Position numbers and translations under genes: made by a program. From Formicincola oecophyllae (GTDB lineage: Bacteria; Pseudomonadota; Alphaproteobacteria; Acetobacterales; Acetobacteraceae): DNA of 64,000 bases. The stretch is taken from assembly GCF_006542395.2 (NCBI RefSeq), contig NZ_CP038231.1, positions 310,001 to 374,000 on the forward strand. Reading direction: 5' to 3'. Below the pieces are notes generated by a model. The model saw nothing but the letters and a program-made list of their open reading frames with translations, ran no database searches and was not told the DNA's origin. This document shows positions 8,789 to 57,629 of this stretch, in pieces (position 1 is the stretch's first letter; the number at the start of each line of letters is the position of its first letter).

Positions 8789-10897
8789 GTGCCTTCAAAA
8801 ACATCCCAGCCTGCAACGCCATTGGCGCCAGGGGCGCGCCAAGACGCCGCCCAAACCACCTCCAGCCACAGCGCCCAGGGCCAACCCCTTGTGGCGCCAG
8901 CCGTCACACTGGGGGGAGCTAAAGCCACCCCAGCCGTGCCCGGGCTGCGCGCGCCAACGCGTGGGCGCTACAACCTGCTAGACCGTGTCGCCCTGCCAGC
9001 TGACCTGAAGAACTTCTCCATTGACCAGCTGCAGACACTGGCTGACGAGCTGCGCTCTGAGACGGTGGATGCCGTTTCAAGCACGGGTGGGCATCTTGGC
9101 GCCTCCCTTGGGGTCATTGAATTGACTGTGGCGCTCCATGCGGTTTTCGACACCCCCCAGGACAGGCTCATTTGGGATGTTAGCCATCAGGCCTACCCTC
9201 ACAAAATCTTGACAGGGCGGCGCGACGGCATCCGCACTTTGCGCCAGCCTGGCGGCTTGTCCGGCTTTACCCAGCGCGCTGAAAGCCCCTACGACCCCTT
9301 TGGGGCGGGCCATTCATCCACCTCCATATCAGCTGGGCTGGGTATGGCTGTAGCTAACAAGCTGCGCACTAAGCAGGACAGGCACGAGCCAGCGCGCAAT
9401 GTGGTGGCTGTTATCGGGGATGGTTCCATCTCCGCTGGCATGGCTTATGAGGCCCTCAACAACGCAGGTGGCCTTAAAGAGGGGGCGGAACGCCTCATCG
9501 TCATCCTCAACGATAATGAGATGTCCATCGCCCCCCCTGTCGGGGCGATGTCGAACTACCTTTCGCGCCTCATGTCATCACGCCGCTTCATGACGCTGCG
9601 TGACCTGGCTGGCAACCTGGCCAGCAAGCTCCCCTCCCAATTGCACCGCACCGCCAAGAAGGCTGAGGAATACGCACGCGGCATGCTAACGGGTGGGACG
9701 TTTTTTGAGGAGATGGGCTTTTACTACATCGGGCCCGTTGACGGCCACGACCTCAACCAGCTTGTGCCCATCCTGCGCAACCTCAAAACCCAGGACGAGC
9801 GCGGCCCTGTGCTGCTACACGTGGTCACGCGCAAAGGCCATGGCTATGACCCAGCCGAACGCGCGGCAGATAAGTACCATGCCGTGGCCAAGTTCGACAT
9901 CGCCACGGGCATTCAAAAGAAAACTGTCTCCCCAGTACCCACCTACACAGACGTGTTCGCTCGCGAGCTGGAGCGTCTGGCCCAGGAGGACCCGTGCGTT
10001 GTGGCTGTGACGGCGGCCATGCCCAAAAGCACTGGCCTGCAGCCCATGGCGGACCGCTTCCCTGACAGGGTGTTTGATGTCGGCATTGCTGAACAACATG
10101 CGGTGACCTTCTCTGCTGGCATGGCGTGTGAAGGCATGAAACCCTTCTGCGCCATCTACTCCACCTTCCTGCAGCGCGCCTTTGACCAGGTCATGCACGA
10201 TGTGGCGCTTCAAAACCTGCCTGTGCGCTTCATGGTGGATCGAGCGGGCATGGTGGGTGCTGACGGCGCCACCCATGCTGGTTCTTTTGATCTCAACTAC
10301 CTCTGCTGCTTGCCCAACATGACGGTCATGGCCCCTGCCGATGAAGCAGAGCTGGCCCACATGGTGGCCACCGCCTACGCTCATGACAGCGGCCCCACAG
10401 CCGTTCGCTACCCACGGGGCGCTGGGGTGGGCACGCCCCTGCCAGCCAAGGGGGAAGTGCTTGAAATTGGCCGTGGCCGGATTGTACACACCCCCCAAAA
10501 ACCCCAGGGCAAGCAGCGTGTGGCGCTGCTTTCGCTCGGCACGCGCTTAGCCGAGGCTCTCAAAGCTGCTGAGCTTCTGGAGGCAGAAGGGGTGGCCGTC
10601 ACCGTGGCTGACGCCCGCTTCGCCAAACCCATAGACCAGGCTCTGATCGACCGCCTGGCCTCGGAGAACGACGTCCTCATCACCTTGGAGGAAGGGGCCG
10701 CTGGCGGCTTCAGCAGCCAAGTCCTGCAGCGCCTGGCCAGCACTGGTGGGCTGGACCAGGTTCGCTTCCGTCCCATGAACCTTCCAGATGCCTGGATTGA
10801 ACACAACACTCCAGCCGCCCAATATGAACAAGCTGGCCTAACAGCCCCCCACATTGCGCAGACAGCCCGCAAGGCCCTTGGTGGCGGCAAGGCCTGA
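8789..10897 (+). CDS. dxs: 1-deoxy-D-xylulose-5-phosphate synthase
   Basis: A 702-residue TPP-dependent enzyme making DXP from pyruvate and glyceraldehyde 3-phosphate, the entry step of the MEP isoprenoid pathway and a precursor for thiamine and, where present, PLP. Motifs seen: GGHLGASLG, the TPP/Mg2+ motif [18 protein letters not shown], and the transketolase pyrimidine-domain stretch [16 protein letters not shown]. The start is a GTG three bases after ispA. It gives a roughly 60-residue low-complexity extension before the conserved YNLLDRV segment; Escherichia coli Dxs is about 620 residues. tlyA follows five bases after the stop. Confidence 0.96.
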
Positions 10898-16706: not shown

Positions 16707-17837
16707 TCAAGCATTTTCCAGCCAGTCAGCTACGAAAGCGTCCAGGGAACACGTGACGGCCCCCCAAGGCGCGTCCAAGTTTACGGTGTTGACGTGAAGC
16801 TTACCCCCTTCAGGGTAACTGTAGCGCAGTCTCAGGGAAGGGTGATTTGAGGGTTGGGCGTAAAGCAGCGCTGTGGAGACGTCCCCAGCTTTGGTGGGGT
16901 GTTTCTGCAGCCATTGCTGGCGGTAGGCGTTGACCTGGTAAAGATGGGCGCTGCGCAGTTTAGCAACACCGTGATAATAGGTGGCGATGCGCGTATAGAA
17001 CTTGGCGTCCACAATCAGCACGCGCCCTGTGCGGTGATCAGCCAGCACCATGTCCGTCTGCATGCGTGGCAGCCATTGGGTGGCTTCAGGGGTGCCTTGC
17101 AAGCTCCAGGGGATGTGGCGGGCGCGGACTTCTAACGCGCTTCCATGGTGGCGTTTGAAATAAGCCAGCAGGAATTTCTCATAGACATCGTGCAGGCGCC
17201 CCTTCTCCAAAGCCAGGAAAAGGCGTGTGCCACCGTGCCCACTGGGCACCAGGCCCATGGCCATGATGAACGCCACCTCAAACGCCAAGCGTTCCAGCCC
17301 ATCCTGGGGTTTTTGATGGGGTGGCAAAGCTGCGAAAGCATGCCCCAAATTGGTGATGTTGCGTTGCCCCCCCTCCAGGCCTTGCGCCAGCATGGTGCGC
17401 CACAAAGGAGTTGCTGCCTGCGCAGCCGCCAGACCGTGAAGCCTTGGCATGGTGGCCACCTGTTCCAGCATGGCGCCAAGCAGCTGCTGTGCGGGACTGT
17501 TGCTGACCAAAGCGTCAAAACGGCTGGGCACGGAACGGCCCTTGTCAGGTTGGCGTGCGTAAGCGGCCACATCCAATGTGCCACGCACCATGGCGCCAAT
17601 TTGTTTGTGGCGCTGGTAACGGGGCGCCAAACCCTTTTGCAGAAGGCGTTTCATGACAGCCACAAAAAAGGCTGCCAACACTTCCTCCCCTCTTTGGGCG
17701 TTTTCCTCAGCCCCTTGAAGGGCAAGGCCAAGCCTCTGGAGCAAATTGCCATCCTGAAGTTGGTACAGAAGCATCATGACCAGGTTGCGCACAGGCACGC
17801 TGACTTGCTCCTGACCAGGGGGGATGGTGGCAGTCAT
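16707..17837 (-). CDS. mcrC: McrC-family nuclease subunit of a 5-methylcytosine-type restriction system
   Basis: A 376-residue McrC homologue. The N-terminal part starts VSVPVRNLVMMLLYQLQ, typical of the family, and the C-terminal PD-(D/E)xK nuclease core shows an early Glu (YEKFL), then MQTDMVL (Asp262) and LIVDAKFY (Asp277, Lys279) with the following YQVNAYRQQ. In McrBC, McrC stimulates the McrB GTPase and cuts DNA. The ATG lies within ATGA with the mcrB stop (17834-17837), so the two are translated as a pair; an upstream start within mcrB is discarded. It is convergent with trpS. All nuclease residues seen are intact, so the system is probably functional. Confidence 0.9.
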   Translation of the reverse strand: MTATIPPGQEQVSVPVRNLVMMLLYQLQDGNLLQRLGLALQGAEENAQRGEEVLAAFFVAVMKRLLQKGLAPRYQRHKQIGAMVRGTLDVAAYARQPDKGRSVPSRFDALVSNSPAQQLLGAMLEQVATMPRLHGLAAAQAATPLWRTMLAQGLEGGQRNITNLGHAFAALPPHQKPQDGLERLAFEVAFIMAMGLVPSGHGGTRLFLALEKGRLHDVYEKFLLAYFKRHHGSALEVRARHIPWSLQGTPEATQWLPRMQTDMVLADHRTGRVLIVDAKFYTRIATYYHGVAKLRSAHLYQVNAYRQQWLQKHPTKAGDVSTALLYAQPSNHPSLRLRYSYPEGGKLHVNTVNLDAPWGAVTCSLDAFVADWLENA

Positions 17838-19261
17838 GGGAGGGATGGTCCATCCACCGTGCGCAAAGGTGCCAAAAGGGCCAGCCAAGCTGGCAAGGCA
17901 TCGCTGAAGCCTTCCAAGGCGTAATCATGGAGAAGGGGCACGATGTCGCCTTCCACAACGCCCCGGCACCACTGGGCGGGTTGCTCCGGTGGGCTGGACG
18001 GCATGAAAAAGCTATGGCCAACCTGGTGTGCAGGGCTGCCCTGGAACCCTTGCTTGCCCATGTCCTGCAACAAACGCACGTTCAGGGCTTCCATCGTGGT
18101 GACTATGGCTTCAGCCAAGGTGGTAGGCACCTTCATGGCTGTGGTTAGGAACGCCAAGAAAGCGGGATGGCTGAAGGCCGGCTTCACATCCCATAGGGCG
18201 AAACGCCGCTTCAAGGCGTAATCAAGAGGCGCCAACGTGCGGTCAGCTGTGTTCATAGTGGCGATGATGTAGAGGTTGGGGGGCAGCCAGAACGCATCAC
18301 CACTCCTAGCTAGTTTGAGGGCATGGTCTGGACCACGTTTGCTGGCCTCCAGGAGGGACAGCCCTTCCCCCAGGATGGCAGCCACGTTACCCCTGTTGAA
18401 TTCATCCACAATCAACACATGGGCATGGCTGGAATCGGCCATAGCCTGGTCGCAGACGCGCCGCAGCAATCCTTGTTGCAACTGCAGCTTGCCATCCTGG
18501 CCTGGACTGAAGCCTTCCATGAAGTCAGCGTAATCGTAGTTTTGATGGAACTGAACGCTGTGGACCCGGCTGGCCACGCCGCTGGAAGCTGAGTTTATTT
18601 CTGTGCCAAACCGTACCTCTGCCATGGCTTGGGCCAGGCGGCGCGCTAGAAAGGTTTTGCCTACCCCTGGCTCCCCTTTCAAAAGCAGGTTCTTGCGCCC
18701 CGACAACTGCTCCAGAAGCCCTTGAAACAACGCATCATCCATGAACAAGGGCTGGGCATGGTCCAAAGAATGCGTGAAATTGTCCTGCACCAGAGGGGAA
18801 GGGGGCGCCTTTTCTTCAAGGATGGTGTCCTGCTCTTCCACCTCAATCCATTCGCGCTCCTTCTCAAAGCGCCGGTCAAGGGCGTGGAGGGCTTTCATTT
18901 TGGCTGTGAATTGGTTCAAAGCCTCAACGCTGGGTAAACGTTCGACCAAAGCTTCATGGGGTTTTTCGCCCAGGATGGGGTAGGTTTCCAAAAGGGCTGG
19001 TGAAAATCCCCAGCGCCCACGGCGCAGCCTTGTGAAAACATCAGCAACGCCTTGGTTGCTGTCCAGGCTTAACGTGTAAATCCGCCAGCGCACAAAGCTG
19101 CCCACTTTGCGCTTGAGGCTTTCACTAAGAAGACCATTTGGGTTTTGTCTCCCGGGGAAGCGTTCGCACACTTTCCGCATGATGTCGAACAGTTGCCCAT
19201 TCCCACCCAATTCCCACATGGCCCTGACCAACACATTGAGGTCAAGTACGGGCGTGGTCAT
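17834..19261 (-). CDS. mcrB: McrB-family AAA+ GTPase with N-terminal winged-helix-like domain
   Basis: A 475-residue AAA+ motor subunit. Walker A is GEPGVGKT (196-203), Walker B LIVDEFNR (283-290), and the McrB signature MNTADR is at 336-341. The first 90 residues (AMWELGGNGQLFDIMRKV, then FVRWRIYTLS and RRGRWGFSPA) look like the Mrr N-terminal winged helix rather than the DUF3578 base-flipping domain of Escherichia coli McrB. Residues 100-190 are a charged linker. McrB uses GTP to translocate DNA and activate McrC. Its ATG overlaps the lpxB stop as ATGA (19258-19261), so expression is tied to the lipid A gene. Target specificity cannot be read from sequence. Confidence 0.9.
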   Translation of the reverse strand: MTTPVLDLNVLVRAMWELGGNGQLFDIMRKVCERFPGRQNPNGLLSESLKRKVGSFVRWRIYTLSLDSNQGVADVFTRLRRGRWGFSPALLETYPILGEKPHEALVERLPSVEALNQFTAKMKALHALDRRFEKEREWIEVEEQDTILEEKAPPSPLVQDNFTHSLDHAQPLFMDDALFQGLLEQLSGRKNLLLKGEPGVGKTFLARRLAQAMAEVRFGTEINSASSGVASRVHSVQFHQNYDYADFMEGFSPGQDGKLQLQQGLLRRVCDQAMADSSHAHVLIVDEFNRGNVAAILGEGLSLLEASKRGPDHALKLARSGDAFWLPPNLYIIATMNTADRTLAPLDYALKRRFALWDVKPAFSHPAFLAFLTTAMKVPTTLAEAIVTTMEALNVRLLQDMGKQGFQGSPAHQVGHSFFMPSSPPEQPAQWCRGVVEGDIVPLLHDYALEGFSDALPAWLALLAPLRTVDGPSLP

Positions 19262-30277: not shown

Positions 30278-31135
30278 ATGAACAGCGCCTGCCCCCTGCC
30301 AGCCTCAACGTCAGATGCCCAGGCGCCTTGTGCACCCCAGGCTGTGCCTTTGAAAGGTGGCCTGGCGCGGGGCACGCTGTTCAATCTTTATTTCCTCCTT
30401 CTGACACTCGCCATGGGATTGGCCGCCCTGCCCATCCGCGCAACCCGCAACCAAGCGTTGGCCCTGCGCTATGCGCAGCGCTGGGCACGAGCTGTCCTTT
30501 GGGGTTTTGAGCACCTTTGCCATGTTCCCGTAAAAGTGACAGGCCAAGCCCACCTTCAGGAGAACATCAGGGGTGGCAAACCCATGCTGATCCTGGCGCA
30601 GCATCAGTCCTTTTTTGACGGTTTCATCTGGATGAACCTGGTGCCGCGCCCAGCCTATGTCATTAAGCAGGAGTTGACGCGCATCCCCTTGGTTGGTCCC
30701 ATGCTGATCCTGGCTGGCATGATCCCCATCGACCGCAAGGGGGGGGCGGCTGCCCTCAAAACCATGATGGAGGCCGTTCTCAAAGCCCAGTCAGAGGGGC
30801 GACAGGTCATTCTGTTTCCGCAGGGGACGCGCACCCAGCCAGGAGAGCATGTCCCCCTGCAAGCTGGCGCGGCAGCCTTAGTGCGGCAGGCGGCCAGCCA
30901 AGGCCGCCCTCCAGCTGTCATGCCGGCCATTACTGATTCTGGCCTGAGCTGGCCCCGTTCCCCCTGGCGCAAACATGCTGTTCCCCTCCATGTGGTGGTG
31001 GGGACGCCTCTAGCGGTGGAGGGCCTTAAAAGCCGCGCCGTGTTGGAAGCCACCCAGGCAGCTTGGAGCAAGCTTGAAGCCAGCAGTGGCGTCAATCACA
31101 AAGCTTTGCCCAGGATTGCCCCTGACAGGCCATGA
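30278..31135 (+). CDS. plsC: 1-acyl-sn-glycerol-3-phosphate acyltransferase
   Basis: A 285-residue acyltransferase. HQSFFD at residues 109-114 is the HX4D catalytic motif, FPQGTRT and the VMPAITDSG stretch match blocks III-IV, and the N terminus has a membrane helix (LYFLLLTLAMGLAALPI). It makes phosphatidic acid, feeding the psd/pssA branch also found in this window. AAAGGAAA precedes the ATG. The stop overlaps the DUF2125 start (ATGA). Confidence 0.94.
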   Translation: MNSACPLPASTSDAQAPCAPQAVPLKGGLARGTLFNLYFLLLTLAMGLAALPIRATRNQALALRYAQRWARAVLWGFEHLCHVPVKVTGQAHLQENIRGGKPMLILAQHQSFFDGFIWMNLVPRPAYVIKQELTRIPLVGPMLILAGMIPIDRKGGAAALKTMMEAVLKAQSEGRQVILFPQGTRTQPGEHVPLQAGAAALVRQAASQGRPPAVMPAITDSGLSWPRSPWRKHAVPLHVVVGTPLAVEGLKSRAVLEATQAAWSKLEASSGVNHKALPRIAPDRP

Positions 31136-32529
31136 TCTCCCCCAACGCAAAACCACCCAACAAGGGTGAGCAACCCCCCAAGCGCACCCAGAAATCAGGA
31201 AGCAGGCGGCTGCTTGGGCTGGGTCTGTTGTTGGCAGGGTTATTGTCCCTGGACAGCGCCGCTTGTCGCATTGCGCGTTCGATGCTTGAAAATCCAGCCT
31301 TAGAAACCATCAAGCCTGATTGCACCAGCCAAAGCATTGGCGGTTGGCCTTGGGGGGCAGGAGTGACCTGGACTGCCCCCCATTGGAGTTTGCCCACACG
31401 CCACCATGAATTGGTGACTGAAGTGCGCGCTGCCCATGCTACACTGGGCGGTGATTGGGCGCAGTGGCTTTGGGGAGCTTGGGTTGGTGGCACGCCCCCC
31501 TTAAGTTTGCCAGGTGACAGCTTGGTGACGGTGGAAGCGCCCCGACCCCACCAGCCTGATTCTGGCAGCGGTCAGCCGGCCCCTTCCATCCAGGCTCAAC
31601 GGGCCCGCCAAAGTATGCGCCTTTCTGACATTGCCCTGATTGTCCGCGCCCAGGACCTCATGCTGGCTGCACGTGCCCCTAGCAGTGCGTTCACACAGTC
31701 AAGCGCGCACGGGGCTGTTGACGCCACCTTGATGGTGTCAGCGCCTGCACTAACCATCATTGTGCCAGGCATGATGCTGGACAGCAGCGCGGCCAAAGCA
31801 CCTGAAGGCGGCAGCCCAACCATGCCCCTGACGCTGCGCCTCCTCAACGTGAGTGGGCAGTTGGTGCCACACCACCGGCCTGATGGTGGTTTGGACATCA
31901 TCCTGAACATGCAGGCAGACAAAGTCAGGCTGATGGGGCAAAGCCTGCCCGCCATGGTGCAGCCTTTCAAGCACCTGCGTTTGCAAGCGCGGCTTTGGGT
32001 GGCTGGGGCGCATGGGGCCCCCTACCCAAGCCCCCTGGCTGGTCAGCAATGGCATGCCTTGGTGCAGTGCCTGTCCTTCCAGATTCCAGCCCCACCAGCC
32101 AGCCATCAAAGCCTGGCGCGGCGCCTTGTGGGGAAAACTGTCATCACCATAGGGGGGGAACTGGGCTGGAGTATGCCAGATCCAGACAATCCCCAGAAAC
32201 ACACAGGTTGGACAGGGCGGCTGGGGCTGAACCTCAGCCATTGGTGGCCATGGGCTAATTGGCTTCTTGAAAACGATTCAGCAGGGTTGCCTGAGAGTGT
32301 GAAGGTGTTCCTGCGCCATGTGCTTGACATGGCGGCCAAGGACATCCGCGGTCACGACATGCCCCCTTTGACGTTCAGCATCAATATGGATGGGCCTTTG
32401 CTCAACAGCCTGCACCTTCCTGATCCACGCTCCTTCATGGGTTTGGGTGGAGAGGCGCACTCTAATGCGGCAACCAGTCAGGCAGCGCAATGGCTGGCAC
32501 CACTCCTGCAACGTAGCACTACGCCTTGA
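31132..32529 (+). CDS. DUF2125 domain-containing envelope protein
   Basis: A 465-residue protein with one N-terminal hydrophobic segment (LLGLGLLLAGLLSLDSAAC) and a large, beta-rich exported part. The sequence GWPWGAGVTWTAPHW and later repeats of strand-rich segments fit DUF2125, an alphaproteobacterial family of unknown function, usually beside plsC or ydcF. The AAC at the end of the helix could be a lipobox, but the consensus is weak. It overlaps plsC by four bases, so it is the last member of the ftsE-ftsX-ydcF-plsC run. Confidence 0.78.
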   Translation: MISPNAKPPNKGEQPPKRTQKSGSRRLLGLGLLLAGLLSLDSAACRIARSMLENPALETIKPDCTSQSIGGWPWGAGVTWTAPHWSLPTRHHELVTEVRAAHATLGGDWAQWLWGAWVGGTPPLSLPGDSLVTVEAPRPHQPDSGSGQPAPSIQAQRARQSMRLSDIALIVRAQDLMLAARAPSSAFTQSSAHGAVDATLMVSAPALTIIVPGMMLDSSAAKAPEGGSPTMPLTLRLLNVSGQLVPHHRPDGGLDIILNMQADKVRLMGQSLPAMVQPFKHLRLQARLWVAGAHGAPYPSPLAGQQWHALVQCLSFQIPAPPASHQSLARRLVGKTVITIGGELGWSMPDPDNPQKHTGWTGRLGLNLSHWWPWANWLLENDSAGLPESVKVFLRHVLDMAAKDIRGHDMPPLTFSINMDGPLLNSLHLPDPRSFMGLGGEAHSNAATSQAAQWLAPLLQRSTTP

Positions 32530-32726
32530 AGGCAATGAAGCGCAGGCAAGGCATTTCCATGGGTAGCCTGGAAAGTTTGTGTGACTTACATTGAGCGCCC
32601 CGCCTCATCCTGGTGGCAGGCTTTACAGGATGGATTTGATCATGCCTCCACATTCTCTGCCAACAAGCTGCCCCATGGCATGAATCCAGACCATTCTCAC
32701 CTTCAATAGGGTTGGGGGCACCCTCC

Positions 32727-33761
32727 ATGAAACGTCCTTCTAGCTTCACTGCGAACCCATCCAGACCCCTTCATCAGCTGGCTCGCGAACAGCAACACCA
32801 TTTCAGCCACTTGAAGCAATCACGCCATGCTGTGCTGTTTGCCACACCAGACAGCCTGTTCCCTCAGGAATGCGCCTCCTGCGATTATATTGCCCCAGCT
32901 GCCATGCTCCTGCAGGCTATCATGGTTTCAACGGCATCCATCATCATGTTGGCCGCTCCCAAGCCTGTCTGCCAAATGGCAAAACTGATTGCCCACGCCA
33001 GGGGCAAAGGACAGCGCATCATCTCCCTACCCCATGGGCGCGATTGCAATCCTGGCAGCCACCCCAGCCACCTGCAGGCCGGCGCCTTGCTCACCAGTAG
33101 ACCCAACTTGCCATTGCTGGCCCATTTTGACAGTTCTCTGCAGGCCCACAGCCTGGCGCACGCCTGTTGTTCTGGCTTTAGCGGCGCCTTGGCGGCCGCC
33201 ACACTGGCCCATGAACAGGGGGTGAATGACATCAATTTCCTGGGCGATAGCTTCCTGGCCCACCACATTCAAACCACCACAGGCCTGAAAGTGCACAGGG
33301 CGCCCACCGTCAGCCACCCCATGCCCTTTACGCCATGGGAAATCAGGCAATGCCGGGAGGCGCACCCCGGTATAATGGTGGTTGCCCATCACACCGCCAC
33401 GCCAGAAATTCAGAAAGAGGCCGATGTGGTGGGCAACACCAGCTCCTTGATGGATTGGTTTGCCACCAACAAACTGCCACGCATTTTTCTGGCCATGAAC
33501 TTTTCCATGACGTTGGGTTTGCCAGCCTTGTTCCCTCACCTGCATTTCGTGCGCGCCCTGCAAAGCTGCCGCTTGCAGAATCCACAGGCTCTACCTGATT
33601 TCATTGCAGCCCTTGAAGGCACCGCTCCCGCCCTGTGCGCTAAACAGGATGACCTGCCCATGCTGAAGGCCTGCCTGGAGCCTGTCAGACGTTATATGGC
33701 CTTTGAGCAACAGGCAGCCACTGGTCGTGACCGCGGTGTGGCCTTCAGGAAATGTCCTTGA
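32727..33761 (+). CDS. divergent NadA (quinolinate synthase) paralogue lacking catalytic residues
   Basis: A 344-residue protein that aligns by eye along its full length with the genuine NadA at 56392-57393. The clearest block is FTP-x2-I-x-Q-x-R-x2-HPG-x2-VVAH, then AD-x2-G-x-T. By that alignment, two of three [4Fe-4S] cysteines remain (GRDCNP and LQSCRL) but the middle one (GHCEVHE in NadA) is Ser. His53, Tyr55, Tyr142, Asn144, Ser159 and Glu233 of NadA are replaced, while the HxE His is kept. It is therefore unlikely to make quinolinate. The ATG at 32727 has a G-rich ribosome site. Its 3' end overlaps convergent gloB by 17 bases. Confidence 0.75.
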   Translation: MKRPSSFTANPSRPLHQLAREQQHHFSHLKQSRHAVLFATPDSLFPQECASCDYIAPAAMLLQAIMVSTASIIMLAAPKPVCQMAKLIAHARGKGQRIISLPHGRDCNPGSHPSHLQAGALLTSRPNLPLLAHFDSSLQAHSLAHACCSGFSGALAAATLAHEQGVNDINFLGDSFLAHHIQTTTGLKVHRAPTVSHPMPFTPWEIRQCREAHPGIMVVAHHTATPEIQKEADVVGNTSSLMDWFATNKLPRIFLAMNFSMTLGLPALFPHLHFVRALQSCRLQNPQALPDFIAALEGTAPALCAKQDDLPMLKACLEPVRRYMAFEQQAATGRDRGVAFRKCP

Positions 33762-34563
33762 CATGGCGAAGCTGGGTGAAGGTGGCTTCATCTGGGGCGC
33801 TCAAAAAGGGGTTGGTGGCCTTTTCCACCCCAAGTGCCACAGGCACACTGGGTTGGCCCACAGCACGCAAAGCCTTGACCTGGTCCACCCGTTTAACAAC
33901 AGCCCTGCTATCCAGATTGGCTGTTAACCCTGGATGGGAAGCCATCTGACGCTGCACGAACGCCAAGTTGGCTGCGGTGTATTCATGGGCTGGGCACAGC
34001 AACACATCGTCTGGCAGGGCTTTTAACCGTTTTATGCTGTGGAACAAGCGCGCAGGCGTGCCTTCAAACACGCGCCCACACCCACCGCTGAACAGCGTGT
34101 CCCCACTGATGAGGGCAGGCGCTGCCTTCATTGCCGCTGGCCAACGCACGAGGTAACAAAGATGCTGGTTCAAGTGGCCAGGCGTGCTGATGGCCTCCAC
34201 CGTCATGCCAGCCAGGGAAAGTTTCTGGCCATCCTCCAGAACATGGCAAAGGGGTGCTTGGCCTTGAGCCTTGGCACCTTTAACTTCAAGAAGGCCTAGC
34301 GCATCTTCTGGGCCGTAAAGGGGCACATGAGCTTGGTCAGCCACCTGCAGGGCACCCCCCATGTGGTCGCCATGACGGTGCGTAATGAACAGGCCCACCA
34401 AATGCCACTTTGGGTGCTGGCGCATCACACTATCCACGGGCGCCCCCTCGCCTGGGTCAAACAACACCAACTCAGCCTGCCCATCAGGCTGGACGGTGCC
34501 AGCCAGCCAAGCGTAGTTGTCATTCAAAAGGGGGATTGGCTGCAAGAATGGTTTCAGGCCCAT
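33745..34563 (-). CDS. gloB: hydroxyacylglutathione hydrolase (glyoxalase II)
   Basis: A 272-residue metallo-beta-lactamase-fold thioesterase. THRHGDH at residues 61-67 is the HxHxDH metal motif, STPGHLNQH and SGDTLFSGGCGR follow, and PAHEYTAANL holds the last metal His. The C-terminal NPFLS ending is typical. It hydrolyses S-lactoylglutathione in methylglyoxal detoxification. ATG 34563 is preferred over a GTG nine codons upstream. The tail overlaps the NadA-like gene by 17 bases in opposite orientation. Confidence 0.95.
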   Translation of the reverse strand: MGLKPFLQPIPLLNDNYAWLAGTVQPDGQAELVLFDPGEGAPVDSVMRQHPKWHLVGLFITHRHGDHMGGALQVADQAHVPLYGPEDALGLLEVKGAKAQGQAPLCHVLEDGQKLSLAGMTVEAISTPGHLNQHLCYLVRWPAAMKAAPALISGDTLFSGGCGRVFEGTPARLFHSIKRLKALPDDVLLCPAHEYTAANLAFVQRQMASHPGLTANLDSRAVVKRVDQVKALRAVGQPSVPVALGVEKATNPFLSAPDEATFTQLRHVKDIS

Positions 34564-34733
34564 GATGTGCTTGTCCTCGTCAGTTTCCACAGGCGGGGCT
34601 TAGCGGAAAGAGCTAACTTACTCCCATGCTGTTTGCGTGCCCCCGCAGGATAGGTGGCCTGTGAGACCATATGCGCCCTTTGCGCCCCCCCTTATGACTT
34701 GACCCGTTGGGCCTGAACAGTCAACGTGGCCCC

Positions 34734-35420
34734 ATGTCACTTCTACAGTCCCTGAAAATGGTCAGCGCCCCCCCTCACCCAGAGGGTTGGCGCTTTGTTC
34801 TCCCTGGTGCCGGCCTGTGGGCGCTTACACGTTTCAGCGGCAACCGCGCTGTGCGCCTGGCTGGTGATGGCGCTTTGGCTTTCGCTGGTTTTGCGGCCTA
34901 TTTCTTCCGCAACCCTGAACGCGTCACGCCTGATGTGGCCTTGACGGATAAAGCTGTGGTTTCAGCGGCGGATGGGCACGTCACCTCAGTGGAGGAAGTG
35001 GTGCCACCCCCTGAACTCAATCTGGGCCAGGCGCCACGCTGGCGTGTGGCCACGTTCCTTTCCGTGATGGACGTCCACATCAACCGCGCCCCTGTTTCAG
35101 GCGAGGTGGTGACGGTGGCCTACACCAAGGGCAAGTTCCTCAATGCCAGCCTCGACAAGGCTTCAGAGCACAATGAGCGCAATGGCATCACGCTGCGCAT
35201 GGAAGATGGGCGCGAAGTCGGGGTGGTGCAGATCGCTGGGCTGGTTGCACGCCGCATCGTTTGTGAGGTCCAGCCTGGGCAGTGGTTGCGGGCGGGGCAG
35301 ATTTTTGGCCTCATCCGTTTTGGCTCACGGACAGATGTCTATCTGCCACTGGGCGTGAAGCCCATTGTGGAAGTGGGGCAAACCATGATCGGTGGCGAAA
35401 CCATCATCGCCACTCTCTGA
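34734..35420 (+). CDS. psd: phosphatidylserine decarboxylase proenzyme
   Basis: A 228-residue Psd of the short (group II) type. [13 protein letters not shown] carries the catalytic His, and RFGSRTD contains the self-cleavage site before Ser198 that yields the pyruvoyl group. An N-terminal hydrophobic region anchors it in the membrane. It makes phosphatidylethanolamine from the product of pssA, which follows in the same direction. The ATG at 34734 is chosen over an upstream in-frame start at 34707. Confidence 0.95.
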
Positions 35421-35472
35421 CCGTGATTCATGCGCAACCATCAGCCGTCACACAGCATCACAAGGCTTGAAC

Positions 35473-36369
35473 GTGGTTTCTTCTAATCAGCCTGTGGTGC
35501 CCTCCTCCACAGAAAGCGACACGCCCAAGGCGGCAACGGCACACCCTAAACGCAGGCACAGGCGGCGCAACCGCAGCCTTTCATTCAACCGCATGGTGCC
35601 CAACCTGGTGACCCTCATTGGGTTGTGCGGGGGGCTGGCTTCCATGCGGTTTGGGCTGCGAGGGCAATTTGGCTATGGCTGTGGCGCCTTGGTGTTCGCC
35701 GCCTGCATGGATGGCCTCGATGGGCGCCTGGCGCGACTGCTTAAGGGAACAAGTCGTTTCGGGGCAGAGTTCGATAGCCTCTCCGATTTCATGTGTTTTG
35801 GCATCGCTCCTTCTTTCCTGCTCACCTTGTGGTCATTGCCGGCCACCATGCATTTCTCGCTGGTGCCCTGCATGATGTTCAGCGTGTGCATGGCCTTGCG
35901 CCTGGCACGTTTCAATGCTGCCCTTGATGATGACGAGCAGCCCAAATACGCGGCCCATTTCTTCCAAGGCGTGCCAGCGCCAGCCGGTGCCGGCCTGGCC
36001 TTGTTCCCCATATTCGTGGGGCTGGAGGCGCAGGCCAACCACATGGCCGGACTGCTGCGTTTTGCCAAATCGCCTTATTTGGCGGTTTTTTGCTTAATGG
36101 CCACGGCAGCGCTCCTGGTCTCCACATTACCGGTGTGGTCATTCAAGAATTTCCGCCTGCCTGCCAAGGCCGTCCTGCCCATGATGGTGGGAACGGGCCT
36201 TTACATCGCTTTGCTGGTGACGGAGCCTTGGGGTGCGTTGGCTGCAGCAGGGGTCATCTACATGGCCATGCTGCCCTTTTCCCGTGCTTCCTATTGGCGC
36301 CTGCGGCGCGCGGCTGAAAGCGCCCACAGCGTGCCTAACCCAGATCCCCTGGCTGACAAAGCGCCCTGA
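35473..36369 (+). CDS. pssA: CDP-diacylglycerol--serine O-phosphatidyltransferase
   Basis: About 298 residues with a basic N-terminal stretch (PKRRHRRRNRSLSFNR) and several membrane helices. The CDP-alcohol phosphotransferase motif DGLDGRLARLLKGTSRFGAE with FDSLSD is at about residues 80-105. The enzyme makes phosphatidylserine for Psd, whose gene ends 52 bases upstream. No ATG exists before the conserved region, so a GTG at 35473 (AAGG eight bases upstream) is chosen; TTG 35467 or GTG 35392 inside psd are alternatives. Confidence 0.93.
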   Translation: MVSSNQPVVPSSTESDTPKAATAHPKRRHRRRNRSLSFNRMVPNLVTLIGLCGGLASMRFGLRGQFGYGCGALVFAACMDGLDGRLARLLKGTSRFGAEFDSLSDFMCFGIAPSFLLTLWSLPATMHFSLVPCMMFSVCMALRLARFNAALDDDEQPKYAAHFFQGVPAPAGAGLALFPIFVGLEAQANHMAGLLRFAKSPYLAVFCLMATAALLVSTLPVWSFKNFRLPAKAVLPMMVGTGLYIALLVTEPWGALAAAGVIYMAMLPFSRASYWRLRRAAESAHSVPNPDPLADKAP

Positions 36370-53890: not shown

Positions 53891-54835
53891 TCAGGCGCTG
53901 ATGATGTCGAGCCCAATGTCGAGCCCCGTGACGGAATGGGTGAGCGCGCCTAAGGATATGACATCCACCCCTGTTTCGGCCACAGCGCGCACTTGGCCAG
54001 GCTTAATCCCACCTGAAGCCTCCGCCAGGGCATGGGGGGCTTTTTGATGAATCATGGCCACAGCTTTGCGCAGGGTTTCAGGACCCATGTTGTCCAGCAG
54101 ATACACGTCAGCGCCAGCTGGGCGTTGCTCTTCTGCCTGCTGGCGGGCTGCATGGTCCAGCGCTTGGGAAAGCTGTTCCAAGGTGTCCACCTCAAGCTCA
54201 ATCTTGGTGAGATGGCCAGCGTGGGCACGTGCGGCGGCCAGAGCTTTTTCCACACCGCCAGAAAGGGCGAGGTGATTGTCCTTGATCATGATGGCGTCAT
54301 CGAGACGGTAGCGGTGGCTGCCCCCCCCGCCCAGTCTGACGGCGTGTTTCTGCAGGGCCTTGAGGCCAGGCAAGGTTTTGCGCGTGGCGCAGATGGCTGG
54401 CGTCTTCCCCCCTGGCCCCGCATTGCGGACCTGCGCGACCAATTCGGCTGTGCGCGTTGCAATGCCGCTGAGGTGGGTGAGGATATTGAGAGCCGTGCGT
54501 TCCCCAGCCAGGATGACATGGGCAGGCCCTGTGACTGTGGCCAGGACATCGCCAGGCTTGATGGTGGCGCCATCCTGCATGCGGGCTTCAAACACAACCT
54601 TCCCCAAGGTGGGGTCGCCCAGGGCTTCAAAGGTCATGCGTGCCCCAGGCAAACCAGCTACCACCCCCTTTTCGCGCGCCACGAAGGAAGCCGTGACCTG
54701 GGTTGCAGCCGGCACCACTGCTTGGCTGGTGAGGTCACCAGCCGTTCCCAGATCTTCCGACAAGGCCGCTTGGACAGCTTGCCGCCAGAGAAAGGGGGGA
54801 AGGTTGAGGGTTGAAGAAAGAGGTTTGGGGGTCAT
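53891..54835 (-). CDS. nadC: nicotinate-nucleotide diphosphorylase (carboxylating)
   Basis: A 314-residue quinolinate phosphoribosyltransferase, the last of the three NAD biosynthesis genes here. Motifs are EDLGTAGDLTSQAV, the ATRKTLPGL loop with HAVRLGGGGSHRYRLDDAIMIKDNH in pieces, and the C-terminal EASGGIKPGQV. ATG 54835 is preferred because GGAG lies before it and a longer in-frame start runs back into the nadB end. It lies 23 bases after nadB. Confidence 0.96.
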   Translation of the reverse strand: MTPKPLSSTLNLPPFLWRQAVQAALSEDLGTAGDLTSQAVVPAATQVTASFVAREKGVVAGLPGARMTFEALGDPTLGKVVFEARMQDGATIKPGDVLATVTGPAHVILAGERTALNILTHLSGIATRTAELVAQVRNAGPGGKTPAICATRKTLPGLKALQKHAVRLGGGGSHRYRLDDAIMIKDNHLALSGGVEKALAAARAHAGHLTKIELEVDTLEQLSQALDHAARQQAEEQRPAGADVYLLDNMGPETLRKAVAMIHQKAPHALAEASGGIKPGQVRAVAETGVDVISLGALTHSVTGLDIGLDIISA

Positions 54836-54858
54836 TGCAGGGTGCACTCCTGATGGGG

Positions 54859-56385
54859 TCAGGCCAGGACATCGCCAAGGATCAAGCTTTGACGGGGCAT
54901 TTCCGAAGGGGGGCGGCAAGTTGGGTAATCTGAGCGCGCATGGGCGCCCCGGCTCTCACAACGCCTTAAGGCTGCTTCTGCGACAAAACACCCCATCAAT
55001 GCGGCATCATCATGGGGTGTCAGCGGACGGAGCTTGTCAAGGAGGGCTGAGAGCCCTTCCTGGTTGCGGTTAATGCCAGCATACTGCCACATCAAGGCCC
55101 CCACGTCTGGCAACGGTTTTTGGAGGGGCTGTTGAAGAGGCACTGAAGGAGTGGAGGCGGCGTGAGGAGTGCCCTGGCCAGGTGATTGGGCTGCCAAGGG
55201 GTGCTGGTTGATGTCCCCTGCAGCCCAGGCCCCTGTGACGAAGGCTTCCAGCAAGGAATTGCTTGCCAAGCGGTTAGCACCGTGAAGCCCTGTGCAGGCA
55301 GCTTCCCCCACAGCGTAAAGCCCAGGCACGGTGCTGCGGCAAGCGCCATCCACCATAATGCCCCCCATGTGGTAATGCATGGCTGGGCGCACAGGGATGG
55401 GGTCTTGCTCTGGATTGACGCCATGCTCCAAGCAGCGTGCGAAGATGGTGGGGAAAAGCTCTGAGAAACGCCCCCCAGGCAAGCGCCGCGCATCCAGAAA
55501 AACCCTGTGGCCTGCAGCAAGGTGCTGAGCCAAAGCGCGGGAGACGACATCGCGCGGCGCCAGTTCCTCTGTAAAGCGCTGGCCTGTCTCATCAATCAGT
55601 TTGGCGCCAGCGCCGCGCACAGCCTCACTAACCAAGGGACGCTGGCCAGGGGTGCCCGTGTCCAGGACAGTAGGGTGGAATTGGGTGAATTCCATGTCAG
55701 CAAAAGCGGCCCCCGCCCGTGCAGCCAAGGCAAGGCCACCGCCCTTCTGACCTTCTGGCACGGTGGTGGCATTGTAAAGGCCGCCAAGGCCGCCTGTTGC
55801 CATGATGATGTGCGCTGTAGGCAGGATGAAGGTGCCTTCAGGTAAAGCGATTTCAAGACCTGCCACATGGCCATGCTGCGTGATGATGCGTTGCGCCTGC
55901 GCTGGCGCGAGAACGTGGATGCTTGGTTTTGCTAAGGCTTGACGCACCAGGGCTTGCGTCATCAAGCGCCCTGAGGCGTCACCGCCTGCAAAAAGCACAC
56001 GGGGGCGGCTATGCGCTGCTTCCAAATGCAGAGCGAGGGCGCCCTTGTCATCACGGGCGAAAGGCACCCCCCATGCCAGTAATTGGCGCACAGCTTCAGG
56101 GCCAGCAGTCGTCATGCGGCGCACAACGGCTTCATCACACAGTCCAGCGCCCGCAGCCAAAGTGTCCTGGGCATGTTGGGCTGGGCTATCCCCCGGTCCC
56201 ACGGCCGCTGAAAGCCCCCCCTGGGCCAAAGCGCTTGACCCCCCCATACCCAGGGGGGCGTTATTGATTAGGACGCAAGGCCCCTTCAAATGAAGCGCCG
56301 TGCTGAGGCCAGCCACGCCAGCACCCACGATCACGGGCAAACCCGCAAGACCATCCAATCCAGCCATAGCAGGGGGAGAAGCCAT
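54859..56385 (-). CDS. nadB: L-aspartate oxidase
   Basis: A 508-residue FAD flavoprotein that oxidises aspartate to iminoaspartate for NadA. GAGVAG at residues 21-26 starts the FAD-binding motif, SSALAQGGLSA and the HYHMGGIMVD and GANRLASNSLLEA blocks are as in NadB. The C-terminal domain is intact. It starts 6 bases after the nadA stop. Confidence 0.96.
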   Translation of the reverse strand: MASPPAMAGLDGLAGLPVIVGAGVAGLSTALHLKGPCVLINNAPLGMGGSSALAQGGLSAAVGPGDSPAQHAQDTLAAGAGLCDEAVVRRMTTAGPEAVRQLLAWGVPFARDDKGALALHLEAAHSRPRVLFAGGDASGRLMTQALVRQALAKPSIHVLAPAQAQRIITQHGHVAGLEIALPEGTFILPTAHIIMATGGLGGLYNATTVPEGQKGGGLALAARAGAAFADMEFTQFHPTVLDTGTPGQRPLVSEAVRGAGAKLIDETGQRFTEELAPRDVVSRALAQHLAAGHRVFLDARRLPGGRFSELFPTIFARCLEHGVNPEQDPIPVRPAMHYHMGGIMVDGACRSTVPGLYAVGEAACTGLHGANRLASNSLLEAFVTGAWAAGDINQHPLAAQSPGQGTPHAASTPSVPLQQPLQKPLPDVGALMWQYAGINRNQEGLSALLDKLRPLTPHDDAALMGCFVAEAALRRCESRGAHARSDYPTCRPPSEMPRQSLILGDVLA

Positions 56386-56391
56386 GGGGCT

Positions 56392-57393
56392 TCAAACAGC
56401 CAGCATGCGTTCAACAGAGGCACGGGCCTTCTCCGCCAGGTGCGGCGGGATGGTCACGGGCGTTTGCATAGTTTCAAGCGCATGACGGATGCCCTTGAGG
56501 GTGATGCGCTTCATGTGGGGGCACAGATTGCAGGGCCGCACAAACTCTGTGCCTGGGTTGAGCTGGGCCAAATTGTCGCTCATGGAGCATTCCGTTACCA
56601 GAAGCGCTTTCTCAGGTTTTTCCTGCGCGATGAAGTTGATCATGTCAGCTGTGGAGCCGGAGAAATCGGCGGCCTCAATCACAGGTGGGGGGCATTCTGG
56701 GTGGGCCACCACCACCACGCCAGGATGCATGACGCGGTATTGCTTGATTTGGCGCGGGGTGAACTGCTCGTGCACTTCACAATGGCCAGGCCAGGTAATG
56801 GCTTTGATGCCCGTTTCCTTGCTGATGTTAGCAGCTAGGAATTCATCTGGAATCATGATGACGCTGTCTGTGCCCGCTTGTTCAGCAGCATGTTTCATCA
56901 CGCGCTTGGCATTGCCTGAAGTGCAGCAGATGTCCGTTTCAGCTTTGACCTCTGCGCTGCTGTTAACGTACGTCACCACAGGCACGCCTGGGTGCTGGGC
57001 CTTAAGGGCGCGCACATTCTCCGCCGTGATGCTTTCTGCAAGCGAACACCCGGCCTTGGGGTCTGAAATCAAGACCGTTTTGTCTGGGTTGAGCAACTTT
57101 ACGGTTTCAGCCATGAAATGCACCCCGGCCATTAGGATGACGTCAGCCTCCAATCCCTGCGCTTTGCGCGCCAGGGCCAGGCTGTCCCCCTGGATGTCTG
57201 AAATGCAGTGGAAGATTTCTGGCGTTTGGTAATTGTGCGCCAAAATAACCGCGTTGCGCTCTTTTTTCAGGCGCAGGATAGCAGCGATGTCATCGCGGAA
57301 ATGCGTGTCCCAGTGTTCCCGGGTCATCAAGCGCGCGACAGTGCTGTAAAGCCGGTCTGCCTCTTGCGGCGAAAGGGAGGGGCTGTTGTCCAT
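56392..57393 (-). CDS. nadA: quinolinate synthase NadA
   Basis: A 333-residue [4Fe-4S] enzyme that condenses iminoaspartate with dihydroxyacetone phosphate. The expected cluster cysteines are Cys116 (PKAGCSLA), Cys205 (GHCEVHE) and Cys291 (CNLCPHM). Active-site residues His53/Tyr55 (LAHNYQ), Tyr142/Asn144 (YVNSSAE), and His231/Glu233 (HPECPP) are present. ATG 57393 is chosen over a TTG one codon upstream. It is the true enzyme; the second NadA-like gene at 32727-33761 lacks most of these residues. nadA-nadB-nadC form one operon. Confidence 0.97.
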   Translation of the reverse strand: MDNSPSLSPQEADRLYSTVARLMTREHWDTHFRDDIAAILRLKKERNAVILAHNYQTPEIFHCISDIQGDSLALARKAQGLEADVILMAGVHFMAETVKLLNPDKTVLISDPKAGCSLAESITAENVRALKAQHPGVPVVTYVNSSAEVKAETDICCTSGNAKRVMKHAAEQAGTDSVIMIPDEFLAANISKETGIKAITWPGHCEVHEQFTPRQIKQYRVMHPGVVVVAHPECPPPVIEAADFSGSTADMINFIAQEKPEKALLVTECSMSDNLAQLNPGTEFVRPCNLCPHMKRITLKGIRHALETMQTPVTIPPHLAEKARASVERMLAV

Positions 57394-57629
57394 CAAGGTC
57401 AGTTCCCTTGTTCTCAGCAGGCTGGAGCAGCGCCCCTAGCCCAGGGCTGGCTAATTCTAGAAGCCCCCTTACTGGAATGTCCATATGTTTCATGCTGGTG
57501 TGGGCTGCGCTTAGCGCTGTAAGCTTGCTGGTCCCGCAAACGGTGATCCTAGCGTTAAGCTCAGCCATGCTTACAGGGGCCGCGACGTTAGCGCAGCCCC
57601 CATCACAGTGCCCCTAAAGGAAATCTTTC

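Follow-up and report, generated by a model that had tools for sequence, protein, structure and literature searches.

The window analysed here is a 64,000-nucleotide stretch of the Formicincola oecophyllae genome (NZ_CP038231.1, positions 310,001 to 374,000); the assembly (G000) comprises 1.96 Mb in 3 contigs and is given as 100% complete and 0% contaminated. Directly upstream of a gloB-psd pair lies a single gene for a protein of the quinolinate synthase (NadA) family, which we refer to as the candidate. Its frame is intact from the ATG at 32727 to the stop at 33759-33761, and its 3' end overlaps the 3' end of the convergent gloB by 17 bases (Table 1). An earlier note on this DNA had aligned the product by eye with the true NadA of the window, and the likeness is indeed better than chance: residues 63-302 match the Pfam NadA family (PF02445) at E 3.3e-13 with 49.9 bits, above the curated cut-off of 27, and identity to the window NadA is 25%. 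The true NadA scores 361.5 bits against the same family. The candidate fails the NCBIfam nadA equivalog models (38.2 vs 294 bits needed, and 26.6 vs 262.9), and a PDB sequence search with it gave nothing but NadA, in 10 distinct sequences at E 1 or below (best E 1.1e-9). The window genome has two NadA-family places, the candidate and the true NadA, the latter in a working nadCBA operon on the minus strand (53891-57396) 20 kb away. Pfam found no transposase or integrase family among the scanned neighbours of the candidate, and Rfam gave no NAD riboswitch within the window at gathering thresholds. A promoter scan found none vs 1.2 expected by chance and hence carries no weight.

Table 1. Coordinates of the candidate, its neighbours and the working nad genes in the window.
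Feature	Position	Strand	Basis or remark
Candidate, catalytically stripped NadA-like protein, 344 aa	32727..33761	+	Frame, Pfam, alignment, codon and neutral-decay tests
Possible worn-down NadQ operator	32693..32709	.	10/14 specified bases of ATRCTCANNNTGAGYAT
plsC-type acyltransferase, synteny anchor	30278..31135	+	Pfam Acyltransferase
Upstream neighbour o31132, 465 aa	31132..32529	+	Without Pfam or NCBIfam family
gloB-type hydroxyacylglutathione hydrolase, synteny anchor directly downstream of the candidate	33745..34590	-	
psd, phosphatidylserine decarboxylase, synteny anchor	34707..35420	+	
Frame at the pssA place, synteny anchor	35392..36369	+	tblastn matches beside psd in relatives
True nadA	56392..57396	-	Has the residues lost by the candidate
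nadB, L-aspartate oxidase	54859..56385	-	
nadC, quinolinate phosphoribosyltransferase	53891..54919	-	

In a MAFFT alignment, the candidate is 23-28% identical to 39 NadA proteins (38 distinct NadA proteins were obtained from 53 loci). It keeps 33 of 103 columns that are invariant among 38 NadA rows, the shortened NadA of G135 being left out of the 39 for this count, and does not keep the other 70. Both blocks on which the by-eye alignment had leaned, FTP-x2-I-x-Q-x-R-x2-HPG and AD-x2-G-x-T, are real. Residues are numbered here on the window NadA with its TTG as residue 1, one higher than in the earlier note. The losses listed there (His53, Tyr55, Tyr142, Asn144, Ser159 and Glu233) all hold up: H54 and Y56 stand opposite a gap in the candidate, and Y143, N145, S160 and E234 are replaced by H, D, G and T. 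We take these six to be substrate-binding or catalytic residues of NadA; Y21 and S124 of the solved NadA are mutated positions named in PDB titles. The positions of the cluster cysteines were matched through PDB alignments. By MAFFT, C117, C292 and H232 (the HxE histidine, as had been claimed) are kept and C206 is replaced by Ser. At 25% identity the alignment is uncertain, and that of phmmer differs from this one: C107 of the candidate falls two residues off the first ligand cysteine, the middle cysteine stands opposite a gap and not a Ser, and the third lies outside the alignment. Of the earlier statements on the cluster, the absence of the middle cysteine thus stands in both alignments, and the Ser and the two remaining cysteines are alignment-dependent; that two ligands remain appears less sure than that one is gone. 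E. coli NadA has one 4Fe-4S cluster ligated by three cysteines, as stated in PMC9981529, and the candidate does not offer such a set. To judge from what the family needs, the candidate should be dead as a quinolinate synthase.

With nine alignment rows, AlphaFold modelled the candidate at pLDDT 60.8 and pTM 0.53, and the true NadA, with the same nine rows, at 81.3 and 0.79. All 19 Foldseek matches of the candidate model in the PDB with E <= 0.001 are NadA, with TM-scores of 0.25-0.31, which make the modelled packing of its domains unreliable. The predicted order of strands and helices looks similar by eye in the two proteins, a likeness that is not independent because both models were made with NadA rows.

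No orthologue of the candidate came up in 397 family genomes (102 genera), in 200 family genomes (the two samples share handles) or in 60 relatives. At E <= 1e-20, 76 of the 397 match it, each genome other than the candidate's own at one place and with 25-32% identity, and the 38 distinct proteins read among these matches are true NadA, at least 60% identical to the window NadA. The genera of G069 (1 genome) and G061 (2 genomes) gave no orthologue, and six 8-residue patterns taken from the candidate found none among named genomes, a search that reaches close relatives only. Viral contigs held no orthologue and phages gave one 23% match; 218 plasmid records match the candidate with no orthologue seen, and among the plasmid matches listed ten are at 27-29% identity, nine annotated as nadA and one without annotation. 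These searches may leave out records of the window's own genome. NadA occurs at E <= 1e-5 in 117 of 289 alphaproteobacterial genomes and at two places in four of them: the window genome, G494 (a gene split into two neighbouring pieces), G640 (a partial piece on each of two contigs) and G495 (both copies full-scoring, the assembly being 10% contaminated). Within the 289 genomes, the candidate is the only low-scoring second NadA that is a long unbroken frame. A literature search, in a collection that does not cover most subscription journals, brought up no description of an inactive NadA paralogue from bacteria.

The gene had been described as lying outside the nad operon, which is true of the present genome; its site, though, is the nad operon site of related genera. 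By LepA, the closest genomes are G069 (91%) and Acetobacteraceae bacterium ESL0709 (G061, locus L125; 90%), among 110 family genomes searched, 105 of them with a match. ESL0709, G135, G100 and G032 have nadA-nadB-nadC, oriented like the candidate, with plsC on one side and gloB-psd-pssA on the other; pssA is the name we presume for the frame beside psd. We call this place the old site. Among 80 named loci taken around psd, some of them too short to reach the nadABC place, nadABC directly precedes gloB in eight (L075, L081, L082, L084, L086, L104, L123 and L125). The named loci with old-site nadABC belong to Bombella, Parasaccharibacter, Saccharibacter, B3987 and ESL0709; none was seen before gloB in Gluconobacter, Komagataeibacter, Acetobacter or the other loci, within stretches that are partly short. 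The candidate occupies the old site in the same orientation, without nadQ, nadB or nadC. Since the two sites are the same, a leftover of a displaced operon explains the place of the candidate better than a free duplicate.

In G069, a frame of 452 residues takes the place of o31132 and stops 22 bases short of gloB; tblastn (E 1e-4) detects no piece of NadA at this old site. This frame and o31132 are 33% identical over 101 residues; a weak point of the comparison is that among the genes of old-site genomes o31132 has no tblastn match, G069 giving the only one. The nadABC of G069 is placed elsewhere, on locus L054, and its NadA is 86% identical to the window NadA. As a side observation, gloB, plsC and psd (window 30278-35420) are merely 43-57% identical to those of G069, against 91% for LepA and 85-86% for NadA. 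Two irregularities were seen in other nad loci. The match to the G135 nadC (L048:9307-10163) breaks at 9777 into two pieces that do not share a frame, which looks like a frameshift or an assembly error, and in L153, L155 and L156 (G037, G116 and G168) nadA adjoins nadC with no nadB in the stretch covered. Across the NadABC set, nadB is present in 19 of 22 genomes.

A gene similar to the one 5' of ESL0709 nadA precedes nadA in seven genomes. We read it as NadQ; NrtR had been considered and was dropped, because scans of the L047 and L050 proteins gave NrtR_WHD and no Nudix family. NadQ, as described in PMC5343134, has an NrtR-like DNA-binding C-terminus without Nudix, adjoins nadABC and binds a palindromic operator, and the upstream gene of the relatives agrees with this description in the two proteins scanned. 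Scanning 10 loci with the motif as printed in that paper, we found an exact operator just 5' of nadA in seven (L047, L048, L049, L050, L081, L084 and L104) and one with a single mismatch in L138 (G008); the best match in L054, with the nadABC of G069, has three mismatches and lies more than 2.5 kb before nadA. Upstream of the true nadA of the window there is no match within 3 mismatches, and the only one in the window, at 35875, is distant from both nad sites. An NrtR-type domain is absent from G000 and G069 and present in the other 7 of 9 genomes. In front of the candidate, a sequence with four mismatches to the operator ends 17 bases 5' of the ATG, near the place where the relatives have their exact operator. 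The chance of a match as good within 60 bp is ~0.034, and the sequence is no more than suggestive of a worn NadQ operator.

In the species trees the window genome stands beside G069, and the nearest kin of both are the old-site genomes. The first, with 26 taxa, used HolC for 10 and plsC for 21 of them, and its support values change with the rooting; the second covered 16 genomes and used the three of 18 proteins that nine or more of them have. In the three-protein tree (1229 columns) the clade of the window genome, G069, G061, G100 and G032 is supported at 97/96 and the pair of window and G069 at 89/88, with the order inside the clade open. The window branch is long in both trees (0.89 vs 0.37 for G069 in the first, 0.52 vs 0.24 in the second). 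In the NadABC tree, window and G069 stand beside and not inside the old-site clade, joined to it only at 50/68; given this and the open inner order, the operon may have reached gloB after the split. An outside transfer of the working nadA is suggested by the NadA tree. We set it aside: a union with the old-site clade is not rejected (p 0.22), and the three-gene NadABC tree leans weakly against such a transfer. Added to the NadA tree, the candidate has a saturated branch of length 10 and is thus unplaceable. Tree tests gave p 0.21 for the candidate with the old-site clade and p 0.09 for the candidate with the NadA of window and G069, values that decide for neither placement, and it is 23-25% identical to NadA of the old-site clade and up to 28% to others. 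Accordingly, the argument for a displaced operon rests on position and not on sequence.

The candidate looks unlike a neutrally decaying pseudogene. When nadA was decayed neutrally to the observed retention, in runs without indels that started from the window NadA and used compositions from hand-picked frames, the frame survived in just 2 of 600. In base composition at four-fold sites, the candidate (A 12, C 45, G 24, T 19%) is close to nine window genes (A 10, C 42, G 27, T 22%) and differs from intergenic DNA, which has 20% A, 30% C, 28% G and 21% T. Its codon score per codon is 0.125, as in 28 window genes (0.120 +/- 0.027), vs -0.11 +/- 0.03 in sequences decayed neutrally to the composition of intergenic DNA, and its second-position GC is 0.477 vs 0.57-0.60 expected if the codon bias were purely mutational. 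Substitutions were compared with 25 neutral runs per setting, brought to matching retention and realigned to control alignment bias. Changed invariant columns score -0.39 by BLOSUM in the candidate vs -0.82 and -0.91 in the two neutral settings (sd 0.16, 0.19), hydropathy retention is 0.56 vs 0.47 and 0.44 (sd 0.06, 0.05), and variable columns are fitted only slightly better (0.70 vs 0.49 and 0.45; sd 0.18, 0.14). The candidate has 15 gap edges, vs 7-8 in the neutral runs, which had no indels. Stops, loss of codon bias and random substitutions, the pattern of a decaying pseudogene, are thus missing, as judged against neutral models that are approximate. The tests agree, though they share assumptions, and show past constraint, which may have been lost recently. 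The idea of an old duplicate kept without its catalytic residues therefore survives in part: the full-length frame bears signs of constraint, and a leftover operon gene fits better than a free duplicate.

The best reading of these sequence comparisons is a NadA pseudoenzyme of one lineage, formerly constrained and with a putative non-catalytic function. That the candidate is the nadA left from a displaced operon, put to such a use, is on balance the probable account. The common ancestor with the Bombella, Saccharibacter and ESL0709 group would have had nadABC, possibly with nadQ, before gloB-psd. In the line of window and G069, another nadABC copy without NadQ control would have taken over, and nadQ, nadB and nadC would have been deleted from the old site. 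Nothing recognisable would then have been left in G069, and in the window genome the nadA frame would have been kept while the quinolinate synthase residues and one cluster ligand were lost. We infer the descent from the old-site nadA on a sequence too diverged for proof, and we infer that the protein is made and has a non-catalytic role for which an intact active site is not needed. This role would most likely be the binding of a small metabolite or of a partner protein by the NadA fold, with no reaction catalysed.

Pseudoenzymes are members of enzyme families that are maintained as coding genes after their catalytic residues are lost, and the candidate resembles them in being such a gene. 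With NadA itself (PF02445; PDB 4p3x, 4hhe, 4zk6) it shares homology along the frame and, by MAFFT, two of the three cluster cysteines; unlike NadA, it is a single gene without nadB and nadC and lacks the middle cluster cysteine and the tested catalytic residues. It occupies the site of the NadQ-controlled nadABC operon of its relatives, but nadQ, nadB, nadC and a recognisable operator, as this system is depicted in PMC5343134, are missing there. The candidate is a rarity among NadA-family proteins in lacking the quinolinate synthase residues. On the account given above, three stages of operon displacement can be seen side by side: the operon in the Bombella group, nothing in G069 and one re-shaped gene in the window. 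If the candidate is functional, the NadA fold would be used without its own chemistry.

The candidate is probably a leftover enzyme that has either taken up a non-catalytic role or is being lost. The second course, a relic without function in which the old nadA, jobless and long translated, is now drifting and still unbroken, deserves serious consideration although we judge it the less likely. It would fit the occurrence in one genome only (1/397), the lack of anything recognisable at the old site of G069, the saturated branch, the low fold confidence, and a frame that extends past the end of NadA into the 3' end of gloB. Against it, the candidate has the codons and the substitutions of a gene under constraint, and neutral drift to the candidate's distance broke the frame in 598 of the 600 runs. 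We think it unlikely that the candidate is a new enzyme, with a NadA fold whose remaining Cys and His bind a metal or a cluster in another way for a different chemistry. The equivalents of C117, C292, H232, T249 and C157-C158 are kept by MAFFT, but the middle cluster cysteine and the substrate-binding residues were lost together, and a new conserved motif is not recognisable without orthologues. The jobs first proposed for the protein (regulating NAD synthesis, sensing Fe-S or metabolites, or acting as a partner of NadA) find no support in anything we saw; it is decidedly doubtful that the NadA orphaned when the NadQ-controlled operon was replaced was recruited as a non-catalytic protein, for example a regulator that binds a metabolite or NadA/NadB and took over feedback control once NadQ was gone. 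Least probable is an unrelated arrival, a diverged NadA gene inserted by transfer at this site by chance: the candidate is unplaceable within the family and no closer to old-site NadA proteins than to others, but its downstream neighbours and orientation are those of the relatives' operon, its GC and codon use are like those of window genes, and the scanned neighbours hold no transposase or integrase family.

Elsewhere in the window (16707-19261, minus strand) we noted a McrBC-like pair, consisting of an AAA_5 ATPase of 475 aa and a McrBC-domain protein of 393 aa. PADLOC found no match for the 393-aa protein and gave weak type II restriction matches for the AAA_5 ATPase only, the best at E 4e-9.
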